Of a stretch of 64,000 bases of DNA, positions 41,838-59,966 are shown one piece after another. The notes under the pieces were generated by a model. That model did not search any database. It was not told where the DNA came from and saw nothing but the letters and a program-made list of their open reading frames with translations. Location of the stretch: positions 4,278,001 through 4,342,000 of the forward strand of contig NZ_CP107834.1 in assembly GCF_036346595.1 (NCBI RefSeq), read 5' to 3'. Made by a program: the position numbers and the translations under genes. How positions within the stretch are numbered: position 1 is the first letter of the stretch; each line of letters opens with the position of its first letter. This stretch comes from Streptomyces sp. NBC_00525. Its GTDB lineage: Bacteria; Actinomycetota; Actinomycetes; Streptomycetales; Streptomycetaceae.

Positions 41838-42719
41838 TTGACTGAGCAGCTTCGACTGATGGCCGTACACGCTCACCCCGACGACGAGTCGAGCAAGGGC
41901 GCGGCCACCATGGCCAAGTATGTGTCCGAGGGGGTGGACGTGCTGGTCGTGACCTGCACGGGAGGCGAGCGCGGCTCCATCCTCAACCCGAAACTCCAGG
42001 GCGACGCCTACATCGAGGAGAACATCCACGAGGTGCGCCGCAAGGAGATGGACGAAGCCCGCGAGATCCTGGGCGTCGCGCAGGAGTGGCTCGGCTTCGT
42101 CGACTCCGGCCTGCCCGAGGGCGACCCGCTGCCGCCGCTGCCCGAGGGGTGCTTCGCCCTGGAGGACGAGACCGTCGCGGCCGGCCGCCTCGTCGCCAAG
42201 ATCCGCGCCTTCCGGCCGCAGGTCATCACCACGTACGACGAGAACGGGGGCTACCCGCACCCCGACCACATCATGACCCACACCATCTCGATGATCGCCT
42301 TCGAGGGCGCGGCGGACACCGAGAAGTTCCCCGAGGCGGAGTTCGGGCCCGCCTGGACGCCGCAGAAGCTCTACTACAACCAGGGCTTCAACCGGCCGCG
42401 CACGGTCGCGCTGCACGAGGCGCTGCTCGCCCGCGGCATGGAGTCCCCCTACGGGGAGTGGCTGGAGCGCTGGAAGGAGTTCGGCCGCGCCGAGCGCACG
42501 CTGACCACGCACATCCCGTGCGCGGAGTTCTTCGAGATCCGCGACAAGGCGCTGATCGCACACGCCACGCAGATCGACCCGGACGGCGGCTGGTTCCGCG
42601 TCCCGATGGACATCCAGCGGGAGGTCTGGCCCACCGAGGAGTACGAACTGGCGAAGTCTCTCGTCGATACCTCCCTCCCCGAGAGCGACCTCTTCGCGGG
42701 CATCCGCGACAATGCCTGA
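41838..42719 (+). CDS. mca: Mycothiol S-conjugate amidase
   Basis: 293 residues from TTG 41838, chosen because TGAGGA lies nine bases upstream and the length equals S. coelicolor Mca; GTG 41820 is in frame but lacks a ribosome site. The zinc site is AVHAHPDDESSKGAATMA and YPHPDHIMTH (His, Asp-Asp, His). It cleaves mycothiol conjugates into a mercapturic acid, which is exported, and GlcN-Ins, which is recycled; this is a detoxification step specific to actinobacteria. LYYNQGFNRPRTVALHEALL is conserved. Confidence 0.93.
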   Translation: MTEQLRLMAVHAHPDDESSKGAATMAKYVSEGVDVLVVTCTGGERGSILNPKLQGDAYIEENIHEVRRKEMDEAREILGVAQEWLGFVDSGLPEGDPLPPLPEGCFALEDETVAAGRLVAKIRAFRPQVITTYDENGGYPHPDHIMTHTISMIAFEGAADTEKFPEAEFGPAWTPQKLYYNQGFNRPRTVALHEALLARGMESPYGEWLERWKEFGRAERTLTTHIPCAEFFEIRDKALIAHATQIDPDGGWFRVPMDIQREVWPTEEYELAKSLVDTSLPESDLFAGIRDNA

Positions 42720-53044: not shown

Positions 53045-53072
53045 CGGCCCACCCGCCCGCTGCGCGGGTTCG

Positions 53073-53156
53073 CGCGAGGCGTTCGAGGATGCACGGTGGC
53101 GGGACGCGCCCGTGTTGCTCAGTGTGGGGCACTCGCCATGGCGCTGGTGCCAGTGA
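53073..53156 (+). pseudogene. Relic of a DUF255/YyaL gene, left island border
   Basis: Twenty-eight codons encode REAFEDARWRDAPVLLSVGH then SPWRWCQ and TGA. The intact gene at 57912 has [20 protein letters not shown] then SSCHWCH at the same place (residues 28-54). DNA identity is high over about 75 bp with scattered, mostly C-to-T changes. The first cysteine of the CxxC site is lost. No start codon, ribosome site or remaining gene is present, so it is a decayed fragment. Confidence 0.85.
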
Positions 53157-53183
53157 ACTCGCGAGCCCGATGGCTGGCCGTGC

Positions 53184-53591
53184 CTATACGTCTCTGATGA
53201 TCACGTGCTTCCCGCAGAGCTTCGACCAGTCGTCATGGTCGGAAGTCAGAACGATCACGGGGGCTGCGACGCGGAGCGCGAGCGCGGCGACGAGGGCGTC
53301 GATTGCGTACTTGTGCCCATGCAGCCCGCCCGCGTCCCGGAGTAGTGCCACTGCAGTGAGGGAATCCTCCTGACTGACCGGTTCCACCCGCAGCCGGGAG
53401 AGTAGCCATTTCAAGCGCGCCAGATCGGTCTTCCCGTGTACGGCTTCAACAATGGTCAGTGCAGACACGAGGACGGGAACCGCAGCCTGCCGGGATGCCT
53501 CGATGCGGGCCGCCATACCGCGGTCGTTGCGCAGGAGTAGAGAGAGTGCCTCGGAGTCGAGCACCAGCGAGCGGGCCGGCTGCTCCTTCAC
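53184..53591 (-). CDS. PIN-domain toxin (VapC-like)
   Basis: 135 residues, starting at GTG 53591 which overlaps the antitoxin stop (GTGA). The acidic PIN residues are in LVLDSEAL (Asp12), TIVEAVHG, KYAIDALVAALAL and TSDHDDWSKL. It is probably a ribonuclease that cuts a tRNA or rRNA site when freed from the antitoxin. It lies 28 bp beyond the DUF255 relic and faces it. Confidence 0.85.
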   Translation of the reverse strand: MKEQPARSLVLDSEALSLLLRNDRGMAARIEASRQAAVPVLVSALTIVEAVHGKTDLARLKWLLSRLRVEPVSQEDSLTAVALLRDAGGLHGHKYAIDALVAALALRVAAPVIVLTSDHDDWSKLCGKHVIIRDV

Positions 53592-53860
53592 GCAGCGCCC
53601 CGCTCGACATCCTCGGTGTTCACGTCTCCGAACAGCTCGCGACGAGCGGCTTCGATCTCCTGCTCCGTGAGTGAGCCGTGCTCCTCCTCATGGGACGCCA
53701 CGATCTCCGCGAGTCCGTCCATGGCGAGCTGGTGCCTGACAGCCTCGGTGATGTAGCTGGACAGCCCGCGTCGGCCGGTTCGGGAGCGGAGCTCGCTGAC
53801 CAGCTCGGCGGGCATGGACACGGAGATGTTCTCGGTGGTTCCGGCCCGGGTTGGCTTCAT
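53588..53860 (-). CDS. Antitoxin, ribbon-helix-helix type
   Basis: 90 residues from ATG 53860. TENISVSMPAELVSELRSRTG followed by GLSSYITEAVRHQL is a MetJ/Arc-like ribbon-helix-helix. The C-terminal acidic part (SHEEEHGSLTEQEIEAARRE) should wrap the toxin. An inverted repeat at 53867-53891 lies directly in front and fits autorepression. Confidence 0.85.
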   Translation of the reverse strand: MKPTRAGTTENISVSMPAELVSELRSRTGRRGLSSYITEAVRHQLAMDGLAEIVASHEEEHGSLTEQEIEAARRELFGDVNTEDVERGAA

Positions 53861-53866
53861 GCTCGA

Positions 53867-53891
53867 AGTGTAGGACAAGCTCTATTACACT
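53867..53891. promoter_or_regulatory. Inverted repeat upstream of the toxin-antitoxin operon
   Basis: AGTGTA (53867-53872) and TACACT (53886-53891) with 13 bases between, starting six bases before the antitoxin start. It overlaps the likely promoter. Confidence 0.5.
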
Positions 53892-53988
53892 GCGAGGGTC
53901 ATGCACGCTCCCGGTTTCGATGGGCGTGATCAGGTGCAGATCGGGGTGCGTGTGGGCCTTCGAAATCGTGTGTGTGAACCTTGTCGAC

Positions 53989-54912
53989 ATGTCGAGGACG
54001 AATGACGCCAGCGAGTTCTACACCATTGAGCTGGTCGATGGTGTGGCTGATGGGCTGCGCCGAGTCACGCGCAAGGGCTGGACTGGAGAGGTCCTGGCTT
54101 TTCCGCGGCTGGCCTACCGAGATGTACGTGGCGAACTGGCGCGCCCTGGTGTCTATGTCCTGGTCGGTCCCAACGACGGCAGCCTCTCCAGGCCGTACCA
54201 GTTGTACATCGGCCGAAGCGATGCCCTGCGAACCCGTATGGACACCTACCAGACGGCCAAGGCGAAGGACTTCTGGAACTACACCTTTGTCCTGACAAGC
54301 GCATGCGGCCATCCTCTGAGCACCGCGATCACCTCCCGCCTGGAGGCAGATCTGATCAAGTCGGCGCTCGACTTCGGGCGGGCTGTCATCAACGTCAACC
54401 AGCCGCGCCCGCTCGCGCTCGATGGGCAGGACACTCGTTTTCTGGAGGAGTACCTCAAGCACGCCCTTGCGATCCTGCTACTGCAGGGAGCGCCCTATTT
54501 CGACGAGCAATTGGCTGTGCACCCTGCATCTCCCTCCCGGTCCGGCTCGGGTTCTCCACGGCGCGAGTACCGCCTGAGCACGAAGGCAAAGCTGATCATC
54601 GCGAGAGGTTACGAGAGCCCGCACGGCTTCACTGTCCTGGAGGGCTCCTTCGCGCGTAGAAAGGCCACTGACTCCATGCCCGAGGCTTCTCGCAGGCTGC
54701 GTGAGCAGCTTCTGGAAGAGGAGGTCCTGGTTGTTGAGAACAGTGAGCGCCTACGGCTGACACAGACGTACACCTTCACGCACCCGTCCCCTGCTGCCAG
54801 CGTGATGCTGGGATACAGCGTCAATGGGGTGGACAGATGGAAGGACGAAAAAGGGCACTCTCTGGCGGCCGTACGCAAGGCTGAGACGCAGGAGGCTGCG
54901 GAGCGCCCCTGA
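53989..54912 (+). CDS. GIY-YIG nuclease with DUF4357-like C-terminus
   Basis: 307 residues from ATG 53989; GTG 53974 is an alternative. The nuclease core (about 50-140) reads RPGVYVLVGPN, QLYIGRSDALRTRMDTY, then the catalytic Glu in SRLEADLIKSAL and Asn in INVNQPRP. The second half (about 215-300) has STKAKLIIARGYESPHGFTV, LEGSFARRKATDS, and a predicted helix-turn (RRLREQLLEEEVL), which fits DUF4357. Such proteins occur with restriction systems and mobile DNA; whether it cuts alone or as part of a defence set is unknown. Lower GC than the flanking core genes. Confidence 0.82.
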   Translation: MSRTNDASEFYTIELVDGVADGLRRVTRKGWTGEVLAFPRLAYRDVRGELARPGVYVLVGPNDGSLSRPYQLYIGRSDALRTRMDTYQTAKAKDFWNYTFVLTSACGHPLSTAITSRLEADLIKSALDFGRAVINVNQPRPLALDGQDTRFLEEYLKHALAILLLQGAPYFDEQLAVHPASPSRSGSGSPRREYRLSTKAKLIIARGYESPHGFTVLEGSFARRKATDSMPEASRRLREQLLEEEVLVVENSERLRLTQTYTFTHPSPAASVMLGYSVNGVDRWKDEKGHSLAAVRKAETQEAAERP

Positions 54913-54939
54913 CAGCTGGCGCGCCGTCCGTGGTCGTCG

Positions 54940-54967
54940 ACTCCTGCCGGTAGAACCCGGCAGGAGT
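54940..54967. terminator. Hairpin terminator after the GIY-YIG gene
   Basis: Arms ACTCCTGCCGG / CCGGCAGGAGT with a six-base loop, 28 bp after the stop. Confidence 0.8.
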
Positions 54968-55092
54968 TGCAGAGGAGTCCTGACGCGAGCCGGCGCCGGG
55001 GTCTGCGGGGGCAACGTCGACCGCGCCCTCCGCAGCCACCTCGTACGCCGTCCCGCTTCTGTGCCCAGATGATCCCAACAGGGAAGTGCGGA

Positions 55093-55440
55093 CTAGCCGG
55101 CCGGACTCCGGCGGCGGGTGGTGTTCCGGCGCCGAGCCGTTCCGAGCAGGGAGGTCATCACGGCGAGGGCCGCTTTCTGGCGTTGCGGCTTACGGGACCA
55201 GACCGCAGGACAGACCACCCCGAAGAAGAAGAAAGCGCCCAGGAGCAGGCTCGGAGCCGCCGACATCGCGGCGACGGCCATGTTGCCCTGAAAACCGGCG
55301 GCAAGGGTGCCTGCGCCGGTCACCGCCAGACCGGCGGGGGTCAGCCAGCGAGTGGGGCGTCGCCGTGGTTCCGCACCCAAGATTCCGTCCATGCTCTGGT
55401 CGACTTCGCGAGGCAGGGGATTCCCCGTACCCTCAGACAT
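55093..55440 (-). CDS. Small membrane protein
   Basis: 115 residues from ATG 55440. Two membrane helices (about 34-50 and 58-80; FFFFGVVCPAVW) with an N-terminal acidic/polar segment (MSEGTGNPLPREVDQSMDG) and a strongly basic C-terminus (SRKPQRQKAAL, RRRNTTRRRSPAG). It has no known domain. It lies within the island, antisense to its neighbours. Codon use is acceptable, but without homologues it could be misassigned. Confidence 0.5.
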   Translation of the reverse strand: MSEGTGNPLPREVDQSMDGILGAEPRRRPTRWLTPAGLAVTGAGTLAAGFQGNMAVAAMSAAPSLLLGAFFFFGVVCPAVWSRKPQRQKAALAVMTSLLGTARRRNTTRRRSPAG

Positions 55441-55477
55441 GTAGTTCTCCGTACCGATAGAAGGGGACTACGAGTGA

Positions 55478-55507
55478 GACGGCTTCCTGTTGGCGCAGGG
55501 AGCCGTC
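55478..55507. terminator. Hairpin in the island, possible terminator
   Basis: GACGGCTTCCTG / CAGGGAGCCGTC (one mismatch) with a six-base loop, in the roughly 260-bp gap between the small membrane protein and the SRA-HNH gene. The gap otherwise shows nothing I can name. Confidence 0.5.
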
Positions 55508-55699
55508 GCTCGTTGCAGGCGCACGACTCAGCCGTCGACGTAACAATGGCAGACCTTTCGACCCTGTTGGTCCGCAGAAAATACCGCGGGACTGTTGTAG
55601 ATTGGGATCGTTGCAGCTCAGAAGCTATTCTGGCGACTCTGGTGTGATTCATGACACTTCGAAGAGAAGGGAAAATGTGCTCTACTTCACAGTGGAAAT

Positions 55700-57244
55700 G
55701 TGTCCAGGGCGCTCCCTGTGAGGGGTGATGGGCCCCTGGCTGAGTTCGCGCGAGCCCTTCGTGAACTGCGGGAGAGGGCGAACGGAACGGTCAATGCGGT
55801 GGTCGCGTGCGGCGCGTCGAGGACTGCGGTCTACGCGGCGCTGAGCGGTGCCCGCCTGCCGAGTGTGCAGACGCTGGATTTGATGGTCGACGCGTGGGCG
55901 AATGGTGCTGCGGCGGAACGGGGCCGGTGGCGTGAGCGTCGACGTGTGGCCGAAGGGGCTATGGCGGAGCGGTCGCGCCTGGCGGGAGCGGCGGTTCCGC
56001 GCCGCACGCCGGAAGAGGCCGACTTCGCCGACCAACTGCGTGCCCTCTGGGGTGTGTGTGGCAGGCCTGCCACCGAAGCGGTAGCCCGCCATTGCGAGGT
56101 GAGCGCTCGTACATTGGACTCCTACCTCGACGGGCGGACCCTCCCCACGCCTGAGCGGTTCGACCAGGTCCTCGCCGGCCTGGCCTCCGTGATCAAAGCC
56201 GGAGCCGGAGGCGAGGCGGATGAGTCGGTCGTGTGCAATGCGCCGCGAACGGAGACGCTCCGGGAAGCCCTTCTCCGGGCGCGCACGGCACGGAAGGAGG
56301 AACGCGCCAGGGTCAGGGAGTTGGCTACGGCGCTGCCTGGCGGGCAGGCGGACCCTACCGGAGGCGTGCCGTCGTCCTCCGATGGGTTCGGTCATGTGCC
56401 CGGAGTCCTGCCGGGACGCCGTTTCGACGATCGCGGGACTTTGGCCAGAGCTGGAGTCCATCGACAGTTGATGTCCGGCATTGCGGGCAGCGAGACTCTG
56501 GGGGCGGAGTCGGTTGTCCTCAGCGACGAGCGTTCCGGCGACGAGGACCACGGTGACGTCATCATCTATACCGGCGAGGGGGCGACGGGAGATCAGCAGC
56601 TCACCCGTGGCAATGCCGCGCTGGCGAGGAGTGCGTCCACCCGTGTTCCCGTTCGTGTGGTCCGCCGGACCGCGAACGCCCCTGGCGGCCTGGCATACCG
56701 TTACGATGGGCTCTACACGGTTGAGGATTACTGGTCCGAGCAGTCACCGGACGGACGGCGTGTGTGGCGATTCCGCCTCGTCCGAAGGGCGCCTGCTGAG
56801 CAGGGTGTAGCGCACCTCCCGCAACGAGACGAAGCCGAGAGGTCGGGCTTGGCCAGCAGTATGAGGTCACCCCTTTCGGTCCAACGGGTCGTCCGCAGTA
56901 CTGCCGTTGCCAACCTCGTCAAACAGATGCACGACTTCAGGTGCCAAATCTGTGGCGTCCGTCTCCTGCTGAAGGGTGGTCGTGCCTACGCGGAAGCTGT
57001 GCACATCCGCTCCTTGGCCCGTCCCCACAACGGCGCGGACGCGATCAATAATGTGCTGTGTCTGTGTCCCAATTGCCATGTGCTCATGGACGCAGGCATG
57101 TTCGTCATCAACGATGACCTCACGGTCGTGAGCCGGGCTGACAGCACGGTGCGCGGAGTGCTCCGGGAAACTCCGGAACACCGGATCGACAGACAGGCGC
57201 TCGCCTATCACCGCACCCTCCACGGCCTGCCGAGGGAGGAGTAG
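55700..57244 (+). CDS. HTH-SRA-HNH protein, candidate type IV restriction endonuclease
   Basis: 514 residues from GTG 55700. Residues 10-65 and 108-165 are two similar helix-turn-helix-like segments (VACGASRTAVYAALSGARLP and HCEVSARTLDSYLDGRTLPT), each ending in a LP motif. An Arg/Glu helix follows (185-208). The SRA/YDG domain (about 234-362) has PGRRF, GVHRQLMSGIAGSETLGAES, GDVIIYTGEGATGDQQ, GNAALARSAS, PVRVVR and literal YDG. The HNH domain (415-462) has CQIC, AEAVHIRSL, NNVLCLCPNCHVLMD (zinc Cys pairs 415/418 and 456/459). SRA reads modified cytosine and HNH cuts, as in McrA-like type IV enzymes; the double N-terminal HTH-like part is unusual. Confidence 0.88.
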   Translation: MSRALPVRGDGPLAEFARALRELRERANGTVNAVVACGASRTAVYAALSGARLPSVQTLDLMVDAWANGAAAERGRWRERRRVAEGAMAERSRLAGAAVPRRTPEEADFADQLRALWGVCGRPATEAVARHCEVSARTLDSYLDGRTLPTPERFDQVLAGLASVIKAGAGGEADESVVCNAPRTETLREALLRARTARKEERARVRELATALPGGQADPTGGVPSSSDGFGHVPGVLPGRRFDDRGTLARAGVHRQLMSGIAGSETLGAESVVLSDERSGDEDHGDVIIYTGEGATGDQQLTRGNAALARSASTRVPVRVVRRTANAPGGLAYRYDGLYTVEDYWSEQSPDGRRVWRFRLVRRAPAEQGVAHLPQRDEAERSGLASSMRSPLSVQRVVRSTAVANLVKQMHDFRCQICGVRLLLKGGRAYAEAVHIRSLARPHNGADAINNVLCLCPNCHVLMDAGMFVINDDLTVVSRADSTVRGVLRETPEHRIDRQALAYHRTLHGLPREE

Positions 57245-57441
57245 GACATTGACGTGGGAGTCGCCCCCGAAGGCGTGGTAGTCCTGAGCGGCTTGGCCTG
57301 CCGCGCATTATCCGAGTGACCTTTTGTACGACTCACGCCTCGACCCCAGGTTCGGAATCGTGCCTCCTCCGGCCTGCGGCAGCCGTTCTTCGTGCGTAAA
57401 TGGTCACGCAGCGCGATCCTCGTGGTGCAACGATGGGAGGC

Positions 57442-57488
57442 ATGGACCGACTGGCGAACTCCCAGTCGCCCTACTCCTCCAGCACGCA
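57442..57488 (+). pseudogene. Relic of a DUF255/YyaL gene start, right island border
   Basis: Reads ATG GAC CGA CTG GCG and encodes [11 protein letters not shown]; after a one-base frameshift LLQHA follows. This equals the family start MNRLA...[14 protein letters not shown] (intact gene at 57912). A GGGAGG ribosome site is kept one base before ATG. Homology stops after LLQHA. Confidence 0.8.
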
Positions 57489-57515
57489 CCAGGTGGCAGA
57501 GAAGTGCGTGCGCCA

Positions 57516-57779
57516 TCATCCGCCAATGCCCGTAACAGCGACGGGGGTCGGCGAAGACCTGGGCCGATTGAGCCACAGGACGTGGGAGGTGTCGAGGGCG
57601 TCCAGGGCGTTTGCCAGGATGCGGGCCAGCCGGTTGTGGCGCTTGGAGGCGCTCGGGCCCACGACGACCATCCCGTCCACGATCTCGATCCCGGTGCACT
57701 GTTCCTCGGACCAGGAGTCGTACTGTTCCGCGCTGATCTGCGTATGCATCCACGCGGGCACCACCATCTCGGCGGTCAT
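57516..57779 (-). pseudogene. Truncated Uma2-family nuclease gene
   Basis: 87 residues from ATG 57779. [40 protein letters not shown] and [13 protein letters not shown] match the first third of Uma2 proteins (about 190 residues). The rest, which carries the catalytic PD-(D/E)xK residues, is replaced by an unrelated 25-residue end ([18 protein letters not shown]). The truncation point is next to the DUF255 relic, so deletion and rearrangement occurred at this border. Confidence 0.75.
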
Positions 57780-57911
57780 GGAGTGCCTCCTTCGAGGAAC
57801 CTCGGCGATCCGGGTGCCGCTGGGACTCAGCGTACTGAGCGGTCGGCGGCGCCGACTCGATCCCGCGCGGGTGCCCCTGGCCGGGGGCGGCGTTGTGAGA
57901 GGCTGGCGCGT

Positions 57912-59966
57912 ATGAACCGGTTGGCTGGTGTGACCTCGCCGTATCTGCTTCAGCATGCTGACAATCCGGTCGACTGGTGGCCCTGGTCGCCCGAGGCGTT
58001 CGAGGAGGCGCGGCGGCGGGACGTGCCCGTGCTGCTCAGCGTGGGGTACTCGTCGTGCCACTGGTGTCACGTCATGGCGCACGAGTCGTTCGAGGACGAG
58101 GCGACCGCCGCGTACATGAACGAGCACTTCGTGTCCGTGAAGGTGGACCGCGAGGAGCGGCCCGATGTGGACGCCGTGTACATGGAGGCCGTGCAGGCGG
58201 CCACCGGGCACGGGGGGTGGCCGATGACCGTGTTCCTGACGGCCGACGCCGAGCCGTTCTACTTCGGGACCTACTTCCCGCCCGAGTCGCGGCACGGGAT
58301 GCCGTCCTTCCGGCAGGTGCTGGAAGGGGTCACCGCCGCCTGGACCGGGCGGCGTGACGAGGTCGGGGAGGTCGCCGGGCGCATCGTGCGGGACCTGTCC
58401 GAGCGGAGCCTGGCCCACGGCGGCGACGGGCCGCCCGGTGAGTCGGAGTTGGCGCAGGCGCTGCTCGGGCTGACCCGGGAGTACGACGAGCAGCGGGGCG
58501 GGTTCGGCGGGGCGCCCAAGTTCCCGCCGTCCATGGCGCTGGAGTTCCTGCTGCGCCACCACGCCCGCACCGGGGCCGACGGCGCTCTCCAGATGGTCGT
58601 CGGCACCTGTGAGGCGATGGCCCGCGGTGGGATCTACGACCAGCTCGGCGGCGGGTTCGCCCGGTATGCCGTCGACCGCGAATGGGTCGTCCCCCACTTC
58701 GAGAAGATGCTCTACGACAACGCGCTCCTGTGCCGCGTGTACGCCCATCTCTGGCGCGTCACCGGGTCGGATCTCGCTCGCCGGGTCGCCCTGGAGACGG
58801 CCGACTTCATGGTGCGCGAGCTGCGGACCCCCGAGGGCGGGTTCGCCTCCGCGCTCGACGCCGACAGCGAGGACGCCACCGGCAAGCACGTCGAGGGCGC
58901 GTACTACGTGTGGACGCCGGACCAGTTGCGCGAGGTCCTGGGCGAGGAGGACGCCGCCTTCGCCGCCGCGTACTACGGCGTGACCGACGAGGGCACCTTC
59001 GAGGAGGGCGCCTCGGTCCTCCAGCTGCCCGGCGACGCCGGAGACCCCGGAGACGCCGCAGACCCCGGTGACGGCAGTGACGGCAGCGACTCCCGCGCCG
59101 CCGGCGTACGCGAGCGGCTCCTCGCCGCCCGTGACGCCCGCCCGCGCCCCGGCCGGGACGACAAGGTGGTCGCCGCCTGGAACGGCCTCGCCGTCGCCGC
59201 GCTCGCCGAGACCGGTGCCTACTTCGACCGGCCCGACCTCGTCGAGCGCGCCACCGAGGCCGCCGACCTGCTGGTCCGGGTGCACATGGGCCCCGTCGCC
59301 CGGCTCGTCCGCACCTCGAAGGACGGGCGCGCCGGTGAGCACGCCGGGGTGCTGGAGGACTACGGGGACGTCGCCGAGGGCTTCCTCGCCCTGGCCGCCG
59401 TCACCGGCGAGGGGGCCTGGCTGGAGTTCGCCGGGTTCCTGCTGGACATCGTGCTCCAGCACTTCCGGGGCGAGGGCGGCCAGTTGTACGACACGGCCGA
59501 CGACGCCGAGCAGCTCATCCGGCGCCCCCAGGACCCCACCGACAGCGCGACCCCGGCCGGCTGGACGGCCGCCGCCGGAGCGCTCCTGTCGTACGCCGCG
59601 CACACCGGCTCCGAGCCCCACCGCACCGCCGCCGAGGAGGCGCTGGGCGTCGTCAAGGCGCTGGGCCCGCGCGCCCCGCGCTTCATCGGCTGGGGGCTCG
59701 CGGTGGCCGAGGCGCTGCTCGACGGCCCTCGCGAGGTGGCGGTCGCCGGACCGGTCGGCGGCGAGCTGCACCGTGCGGCCCTGCTGGGCCGGGCCCCCGG
59801 CGCGGTCGTCGCGGCCGGCGAGCCGGGCGGCGCGGAGTTCCCGCTGCTCGCGGACCGTGTGATGAAGGACGGCGCGCCGACGGCGTACGTCTGCCGCCAC
59901 TTCGTGTGCGACGCCCCGACGACGGACCCGGGCGCCCTGGCCCACGCGCTGGGCGGGACGCCGTAA
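57912..59966 (+). CDS. DUF255 thioredoxin-fold/glycosidase-like protein (YyaL type)
   Basis: 684 residues from ATG 57912. The N-terminal thioredoxin-like domain has [37 protein letters not shown] (the CxxC pair) and [10 protein letters not shown]. The second part (about 180-680) is an alpha/alpha-barrel like glycosyl hydrolases ([42 protein letters not shown]). A 21-residue Gly/Asp/Pro-rich linker (about 375-400) interrupts it. The family is widespread; its substrate is unknown. The gene itself is intact, and both island borders hold relics of it. Confidence 0.93.

Follow-up and report, generated by a model that had tools for sequence, protein, structure and literature searches.

At rlmH, elements of the staphylococcal cassette chromosome mec (SCCmec) type integrate by means of large serine recombinases, keep the gene intact, and occur stacked as well as in relatives without a recombinase; they differ from the case treated here in using the 3' end of another gene, and ccr genes. 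The SXT element, in turn, supplies a new start of prfC. The integrative and conjugative elements (ICEs) of the SXT/R391 family integrate at the 5' end of this conserved gene (PMC2791158, PMC2654960), and a toxin-antitoxin pair carried by the element promotes its maintenance (PMC2654960). In Streptomyces, the work on phiJoe and the SCO2603 element describes a serine integrase with an attachment site (attB) inside a coding gene, a B12-binding radical SAM gene whose end is 74 bp away, and a site that is occupied by elements of varied content (PMC5311408). The locus considered here is the 5' end of yyaL (Thioredox_DsbH, DUF255) in Streptomyces sp. NBC_00525, within a stretch of 64,000 nucleotides (4278001-4342000 of the 7.1-Mb genome; the window), together with the corresponding loci of related genomes. 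With a probability of about 0.85, codon 53 of yyaL, in the CHWCH active site, would be an attB for large serine integrases, such that the arriving element supplies a new 5' end to the gene while the previous one is left in place as a scar.

As with SXT/R391, a conserved gene is entered at its 5' end. However, SXT/R391 is one ICE family with a tyrosine integrase and prfC as its target, whereas the gene at this locus is a different one, and the integrases next to the junction in relatives are serine recombinases, of three types; the site, moreover, is used by a prophage as well as by smaller islands that carry genes for defence or biosynthesis, and the coding replacement covers about 158 or 800 bp. 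It differs from the phiJoe site in lying near the 5' end and in the replacement itself. The integrases beside yyaL also set it apart from an integron, being serine recombinases (no search covered attI or attC). The kind of site is known, from SXT at prfC; in the literature consulted, which covered few subscription journals, no report was found that names yyaL's DUF255 or a thioredoxin-domain gene as an attB.

A common cut at codon 53 and a foreign arm

The original prediction placed decayed pieces of yyaL at both borders of an island in the window, and suggested repeated insertion or recombination at this gene, possibly by a mobile element aimed at its 5' region, with scars as the result. The left piece (53070-53152) is homologous to yyaL as claimed: it is 84% identical over 83 bp to nucleotides 76-158 of the window's own yyaL, with an E-value of 1.6e-19 against the whole genome (next best 0.02) and an alignment score of 101, where 500 shuffles reach at most 38 and 334 other windows at most 46, which rules out a chance match. 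Read by hand, its frame covers codons 26-53, followed directly by TGA, and the predicted loss of the first CxxC cysteine is confirmed, TGC having changed to TGG at codon 50. The predicted in-frame stop is also present; it is no sign of decay, however, since this TGA is part of a foreign arm (CCAG-TGA) and recurs at other scars. By its sequence, the left relic is thus an attL, in which an old host yyaL 5' end, cut at codon 53, is joined to an attP-type arm at CTGG-TG-CCAGT.

This junction recurs at scars in other genomes (genomes are numbered G, contigs C and loci L). Fragments were seen to end in ...CACTGGTG, followed directly by CCAGT and then by one of several arms, four of which were named: TGAACTCGCGAACCCAGTAGT, the window's kind, TGCATGTGAACAACCAGG, TAGCTGAACACAACCCGG and TGCACTCGTTGAACCCATAAG. 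The comparison used 28 scars from the fetched loci, omitting two duplicate loci, seven loci with imitations of the yyaL start (see below), and a remote piece in G244. By scripted count, the junction shows the foreign right half TG(C/T)C(A/G)GT in 21 of these but in none of 68 intact genes, all of which have TG(C/T)CA(C/T)GT instead; CACTGGTGCCAGT, at up to one mismatch, is found in 16 of the 28 scars and in 0/68 genes. The right half serves as the criterion because cores counted at up to three mismatches fail to separate the two, 64 of the 68 intact genes passing as well.

ACTGG and CCAGT form an inverted repeat around TG, which is itself the start of the second cysteine codon of yyaL. An inverted repeat around a dinucleotide is the layout expected of serine integrase sites, and the crossover dinucleotide in the window would be the TG at 53148-53149. 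The attL at 53142-53162, whose core reads CTGG-TG-CCAG, has a short core in common with attB, the attB-type core of the intact gene being CACTGG-TG-TCACG (58059-58071). When the window's arm pattern was searched in 392 genomes at up to one mismatch, it was found in 13, the window's included, each time on a yyaL 5' fragment. At up to two mismatches it was found in 29 genomes, as against about 60 (hand count) for a reversed control pattern; such hits therefore carry no meaning.

In the proposed mechanism, the attP of the element would consist of a yyaL 5' end, either copied or imitated, the TG core, and the P' arm. Recombination at the TG would join host codons 1-53 to P', yielding attL as a dead scar, and the same event would join the element's 5' end to the remaining host codons, yielding attR. 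In one prophage class, the element's 5' end would be an imitation without read-through, leaving yyaL split; in other elements it would be in frame, and the gene would survive. With time, the element would erode.

Prophage, integrases and replaced 5' ends

In G035 (S. mashuensis JCM 4059), a host scar lies directly behind mca and a small membrane gene (mca-mem77), which are common yyaL neighbors in the fetched loci. It is followed by 57 kb of DNA, a serine integrase of 550 residues, an imitation of yyaL codons 1-53 that lies about 160 bp from the integrase and ends in stops, and the rest of yyaL in another frame. Nine of ten open reading frames of this element, compared with PHROGs, have family matches, including tape measure, major head, minor tail, DNA polymerase, primase and regulator families; judged by these matches, the scar is one end of a tailed prophage with a large serine integrase near its other end. 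At the same junction, Streptomyces sp. CBMA123 carries an integrase that is 75% identical to this one, and G286 carries integrase remnants.

Imitations of this kind occur in seven loci (L054, L058, L072-L075, L086), each imitating YyaL codons 1-53 without read-through into yyaL. A stop follows within three codons of CHL in all but L086; six of the seven are out of frame with the remaining yyaL, and the seventh (L058) is in frame with a TAG. CHLC is kept in five, L074 having CHLA and L058 CHL, and one stretch of 17 residues is kept in all. Summed over the 21 pairs, which are not independent, there are 261 synonymous and 93 non-synonymous codon differences, a non-synonymous share of 26% as against 76% expected from random changes; together with the conserved residues, this suggests that the imitation peptide itself is kept, or was until recently, at the protein level. 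A restart ATG in the frame of the remaining yyaL is present in four of the seven (read by hand), and a programmed frameshift across the junction was dismissed, as no common pattern was apparent by eye. The G035 peptide has no match at E <= 1 among 50,697 phage records. An eighth imitation, in G135, has an internal stop and is joined to a P' arm, after which come Uma2 and an intact yyaL.

The three integrase types found at the site, termed intA, intB and intC, each match PF00239 and PF07508. An intA-like protein is encoded in 36 of the 392 genomes (E <= 1e-50); yyaL lies within the 1.5-kb flank in eight of the 30 intA-like loci listed, and G377 (contig C377) is a ninth. Compared with phage records, intA has 118 matches, all below 60% identity and the 20 listed at 25-29%, and no relative was found in IMG/VR by the patterns used.

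In the three intC loci (L076-L078, in G209, G022 and G269), yyaL is cut near codon 266-270, which points to a second attachment site there; so far, these are the only loci with scars running past codon 53. The integrase frame directly follows the scar and is perhaps expressed from the old yyaL promoter, and about 270 codons ahead of the remaining yyaL are replaced in frame. Compared with the window's protein, scar codons 54-266 are 81-83% identical and present codons 54-270 only 69-71%; the element therefore seems to have supplied the diverged part.

Outside the intC loci, the clearest case of replacement is G178. Its nearest relatives by the 3' part of the gene are L028 (97%), L035 (96%) and L022 (96%). 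The 5' ends of L028 and L035 match its scar at 94% and 93% but its present 5' end at only 74%, whereas L022 shares that present end at 97%. In 24 genes behind scars, not selected for this property, the G+C content at third codon positions fits best with a step from 0.80 to 0.94 at codon 53 (a gain of 67.9 log units, the first 12 codons being left out), and nearly as well with one at codon 58 (67.7); for 13 native genes the gain is 6.1, at codon 64.

The eight intB loci (L118-L125, in G085, G364, G264, G153, G062, G261, G173 and G377) are of another kind. Here the integrase gene stands between an MMPL gene and a yyaL that is intact and in frame; seven of the loci show the common neighbors further left (L122 is too short to do so). 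All eight have an open reading frame with YARTS and lack the coiled-coil stretch, having 52-53 residues in place of the 121 in intA. This stretch presumably controls synapsis. The ratio of non-synonymous to synonymous rates (dN/dS) is 0.14-0.30 between pairs, with 0.48-0.68 synonymous differences per site. As an integrase without an element, kept open and devoid of the coiled coil, intB looks domesticated; its distances correlate at 0.63 with those of mca (21 pairs) and at only 0.19 with those of yyaL (28 pairs), so that it may or may not have descended vertically. G067 seems to have a partial copy of intB.

These features of intB, including the absence of a mobile element from all eight fetched stretches, would suit a resident integrase that captures cassettes tagged with a yyaL 5' end, in the manner of an integron. 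This is quite improbable, as the same stretches contain no scar and the scanned loci that do bear scars have no intB match at the site. In a wider and likewise doubtful proposal, the yyaL start would be a shared docking platform, at which islands that lack an integrase but bear a yyaL 5' end plus a P' arm are mobilized in trans, and the domesticated intB either captures them or guards the site against prophages.

The island in the window

The window's features at this locus, from left to right, are:

53070 to 53152, plus strand: attL scar as described above, abandoned host yyaL codons 26-53 with the first cysteine of CHWC altered; its left part is also in G147.
53142 to 53162, plus strand: attL core and start of the P' arm, CGCTGGTGCCAGTGAACTCGC.
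53184 to 53591, minus strand: PIN-domain toxin-like protein (PF01850, 2e-8).
53588 to 53878, minus strand: putative partner antitoxin, assigned by its position next to the PIN gene.
53980 to 54912, plus strand: DUF4357 protein (PF14267, 3.4e-18), in the PADLOC candidate defence family PDC-S14 (5.5e-66).
55093 to 55440, minus strand: small open reading frame, membrane-like by eye, with no family in the Pfam and PHROGs scans.
55700 to 57244, plus strand: helix-turn-helix, SAD_SRA (7.5e-42) and HNH (HNH_2, 1.3e-8) protein, type IV restriction-like (PADLOC mREase_IV, weak at 6e-7).
57421 to 57487, plus strand: remnant of an imitation yyaL start from an element, covering codons 1-16 and some 20 bp ahead of them, with one base lost.
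57597 to 57779, minus strand: Uma2 gene remnant, the first 61 codons; full-length in G147, whose protein matches PF05685 (1.2e-20).
57912 to 59966, plus strand: intact yyaL (PF03190, 5.4e-76), the only match to that family in the genome.

The island has a G+C content of 65.0%, as against 73.1% on its left, and mca lies at 41859-42716, so that the usual yyaL neighborhood is near. PIN genes also adjoin scars in L015, L024, L036 and L043. The antitoxin candidate has no Pfam, PADLOC or PHROGs match, but relatives at 86-94% stand next to PIN genes in L013, L015 and L043. The DUF4357 protein also matches phrog_12629, of unknown function (2.8e-37). Searched against the other fetched loci, the cargo between 53880 and 57244 gave nothing at E <= 0.01, and no phage structural genes were found among the five island proteins, whose PHROGs matches are to unknown-function and HNH families only.

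The right piece had been predicted to encode residues 1-16 of the same family with one frameshift. It is real and has lost one base (in CCCTAC-TCC), but it belongs to the imitations and not to host yyaL. Against the window's own yyaL its score of 23 is no better than chance, since shuffles reach 35 and other windows 46, and against native 5' ends its best E-value is 1e-3; against the seven element-borne imitations, E-values run from 1e-10 to 3e-5, the match starting 16-21 bp ahead of the start codon in six and just inside it in L074. Chance was ruled out for this relic only once it was compared with the imitations, as a remnant of which its sequence identifies it. At this end of the island, 67 bp of imitation arm are thus left and the core of the presumed attR is lost. 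The order in G135 matches this right end of the window.

The two pieces had also been taken as possible parts of one broken tandem copy. Gene fragments beside an intact copy, one of them 84% like it, are indeed what a tandem duplication of yyaL would leave after deletions and insertions, with no site-specific recombination involved. Against this stand the serine integrases and the prophage at the same junction and the element class of the right relic; the proposal was rejected, as extremely unlikely, on the common end base and the foreign right half of 21 of the 28 scars. With the left piece a host 5' end and the right piece an element's imitation, the odd order of middle piece, island, N-terminal piece and intact gene is accounted for, and the earlier idea of an element that repeatedly targets the yyaL 5' region is borne out by the common cut, the foreign arms, the prophage and the integrases.

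The window would then contain the ruin of one eroded element, of which the left end and part of a right arm remain. The closest relative, G147, is colinear with the window up to 53129 and again from 57597 and does not have the island; the scar therefore predates the split of the two lineages. A relic without an island had been thought to speak against an insertion; one does occur, in G147, and is read here as this older scar. The Uma2 remnant and the intact yyaL start probably came to the window in a second event, either a later restoration or a second insertion.

Several observations weigh against integration at codon 53 as the general account. In the window, no integrase is left: 53101-57900 compared with intA, intB and intC gave a best E-value of 0.16 (0.08 in a narrower scan of 54901-57600), and the five island proteins have no Resolvase or Recombinase Pfam domain. 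A single plain attP x attB reaction does not leave an attL beside an attB-type gene that is complete, unless the left half of attP was itself attB-like, and no foreign 5' end has been shown for the window's intact yyaL. Elsewhere, the right half is absent in seven of the 28 scars (L010, L028, L041, L060, L064, which differs by one base, and the second scar in each of L061 and L081), and no integrase was matched inside most small scar-bounded islands. When 16 genes were each set against the relative with the most similar 3' part, the scar proved closer in five (L024, L053, L059, L068, L081) and equal in two, and the present 5' end closer in nine, in a sample where L027 and L041 are out of register, the L071 fragment is an imitation, and many relatives may carry replaced ends; replacement is not a general pattern in this sample. 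In a pairwise test, 16 of the 72 significant breakpoints in scar genes fall at nucleotides 140-180, compared with 5 of 31 in native genes, a result only weakly in favor of replacement.

Some of these points would also follow if integrations had been few and old, and many islands had arrived or been rebuilt by homologous recombination between scar and gene, which form repeats of about 158 bp. This process readily places an attL next to an attB-type gene and accords with the rarity of integrases in small islands, with scars closer to relatives in only those five rows, and with the 98-100% likeness of scar and present 5' end in L061, L065 and L066. It is a possible but somewhat unlikely account of many islands, since several P'-type arms after the same core call for several integrations, and tandem scars (L061, L081, L059/L060) also speak against it. 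The sequences themselves show the scars, their common cut point, the prophage and integrase at this junction, and the replaced 5' end in G178 and the three intC loci. Under site-specific integration at codon 53, the order of steps in the window, the action there of an integrase of one type or another, and the regain of an intact 5' end would all be reconstructions from what is left.

Distribution, cargo and significance

Within the genus, yyaL is present in 293 of 295 genomes, and 35 (the window's, G000, included) have at least two matches to its codons 1-173. By a hand-read search with codons 1-63, a fragment of the yyaL 5' end lies upstream in 29 of the 35, sharing strand and contig with the gene at a distance of 0.3 to 65 kb; among these, G170 is weak (56% identity), the G135 fragment is of the imitation class, and G022, G209 and G269 have the longer intC scar. 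Four genomes (G019, G146, G272, G286) have only an imitation junction, and two have neither: G224, with one match, and G244, with a fragment 1.4 Mb away (L080, C1 about 2636225). Scars thus occur in about one in ten of the 295 genomes, which is likely a lower bound because short, decayed scars escape the search. Tandem yyaL scars upstream of the gene, in the form of stacked insertions, were seen in L061, L081 and L059-L060. In 197 genomes of the class, a less sensitive search that missed the window's own scar found at least two matches in eight, G218 in the genus and seven outside; the listed second copies outside lie on other contigs except in G447, and for three none was listed. G447, of another family of the class, has a yyaL fragment 6.3 kb upstream of the gene (C1 677262-677444).

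As judged from a small, author-chosen sample of cargo, the yyaL site appears to hold defence genes and sometimes biosynthetic genes. G025 carries a cyclase of the cyclic-oligonucleotide-based antiphage signaling system (CBASS) with a SAVED-HNH effector, and G178 a type I methyltransferase-like protein; in G080 (L084, L050-L053), nonribosomal peptide synthetase (NRPS) proteins and an IS110 transposase lie within a 65-kb interval between a host-type scar and an intact yyaL. L061, a locus with tandem scars, contains CBASS genes.

For annotators, the proposed mechanism would give a reason for yyaL start fragments and split yyaL genes, and for strain engineering, it would offer an attB with candidate integrases. 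It also leads one to ask why the imitation N-terminus of elements, in most cases including its CxxC, is preserved by selection on the protein. For Streptomyces, these considerations point to a named chromosomal site for a prophage, defence islands and at least one NRPS region, at which insertions may be read from the scars that they leave.

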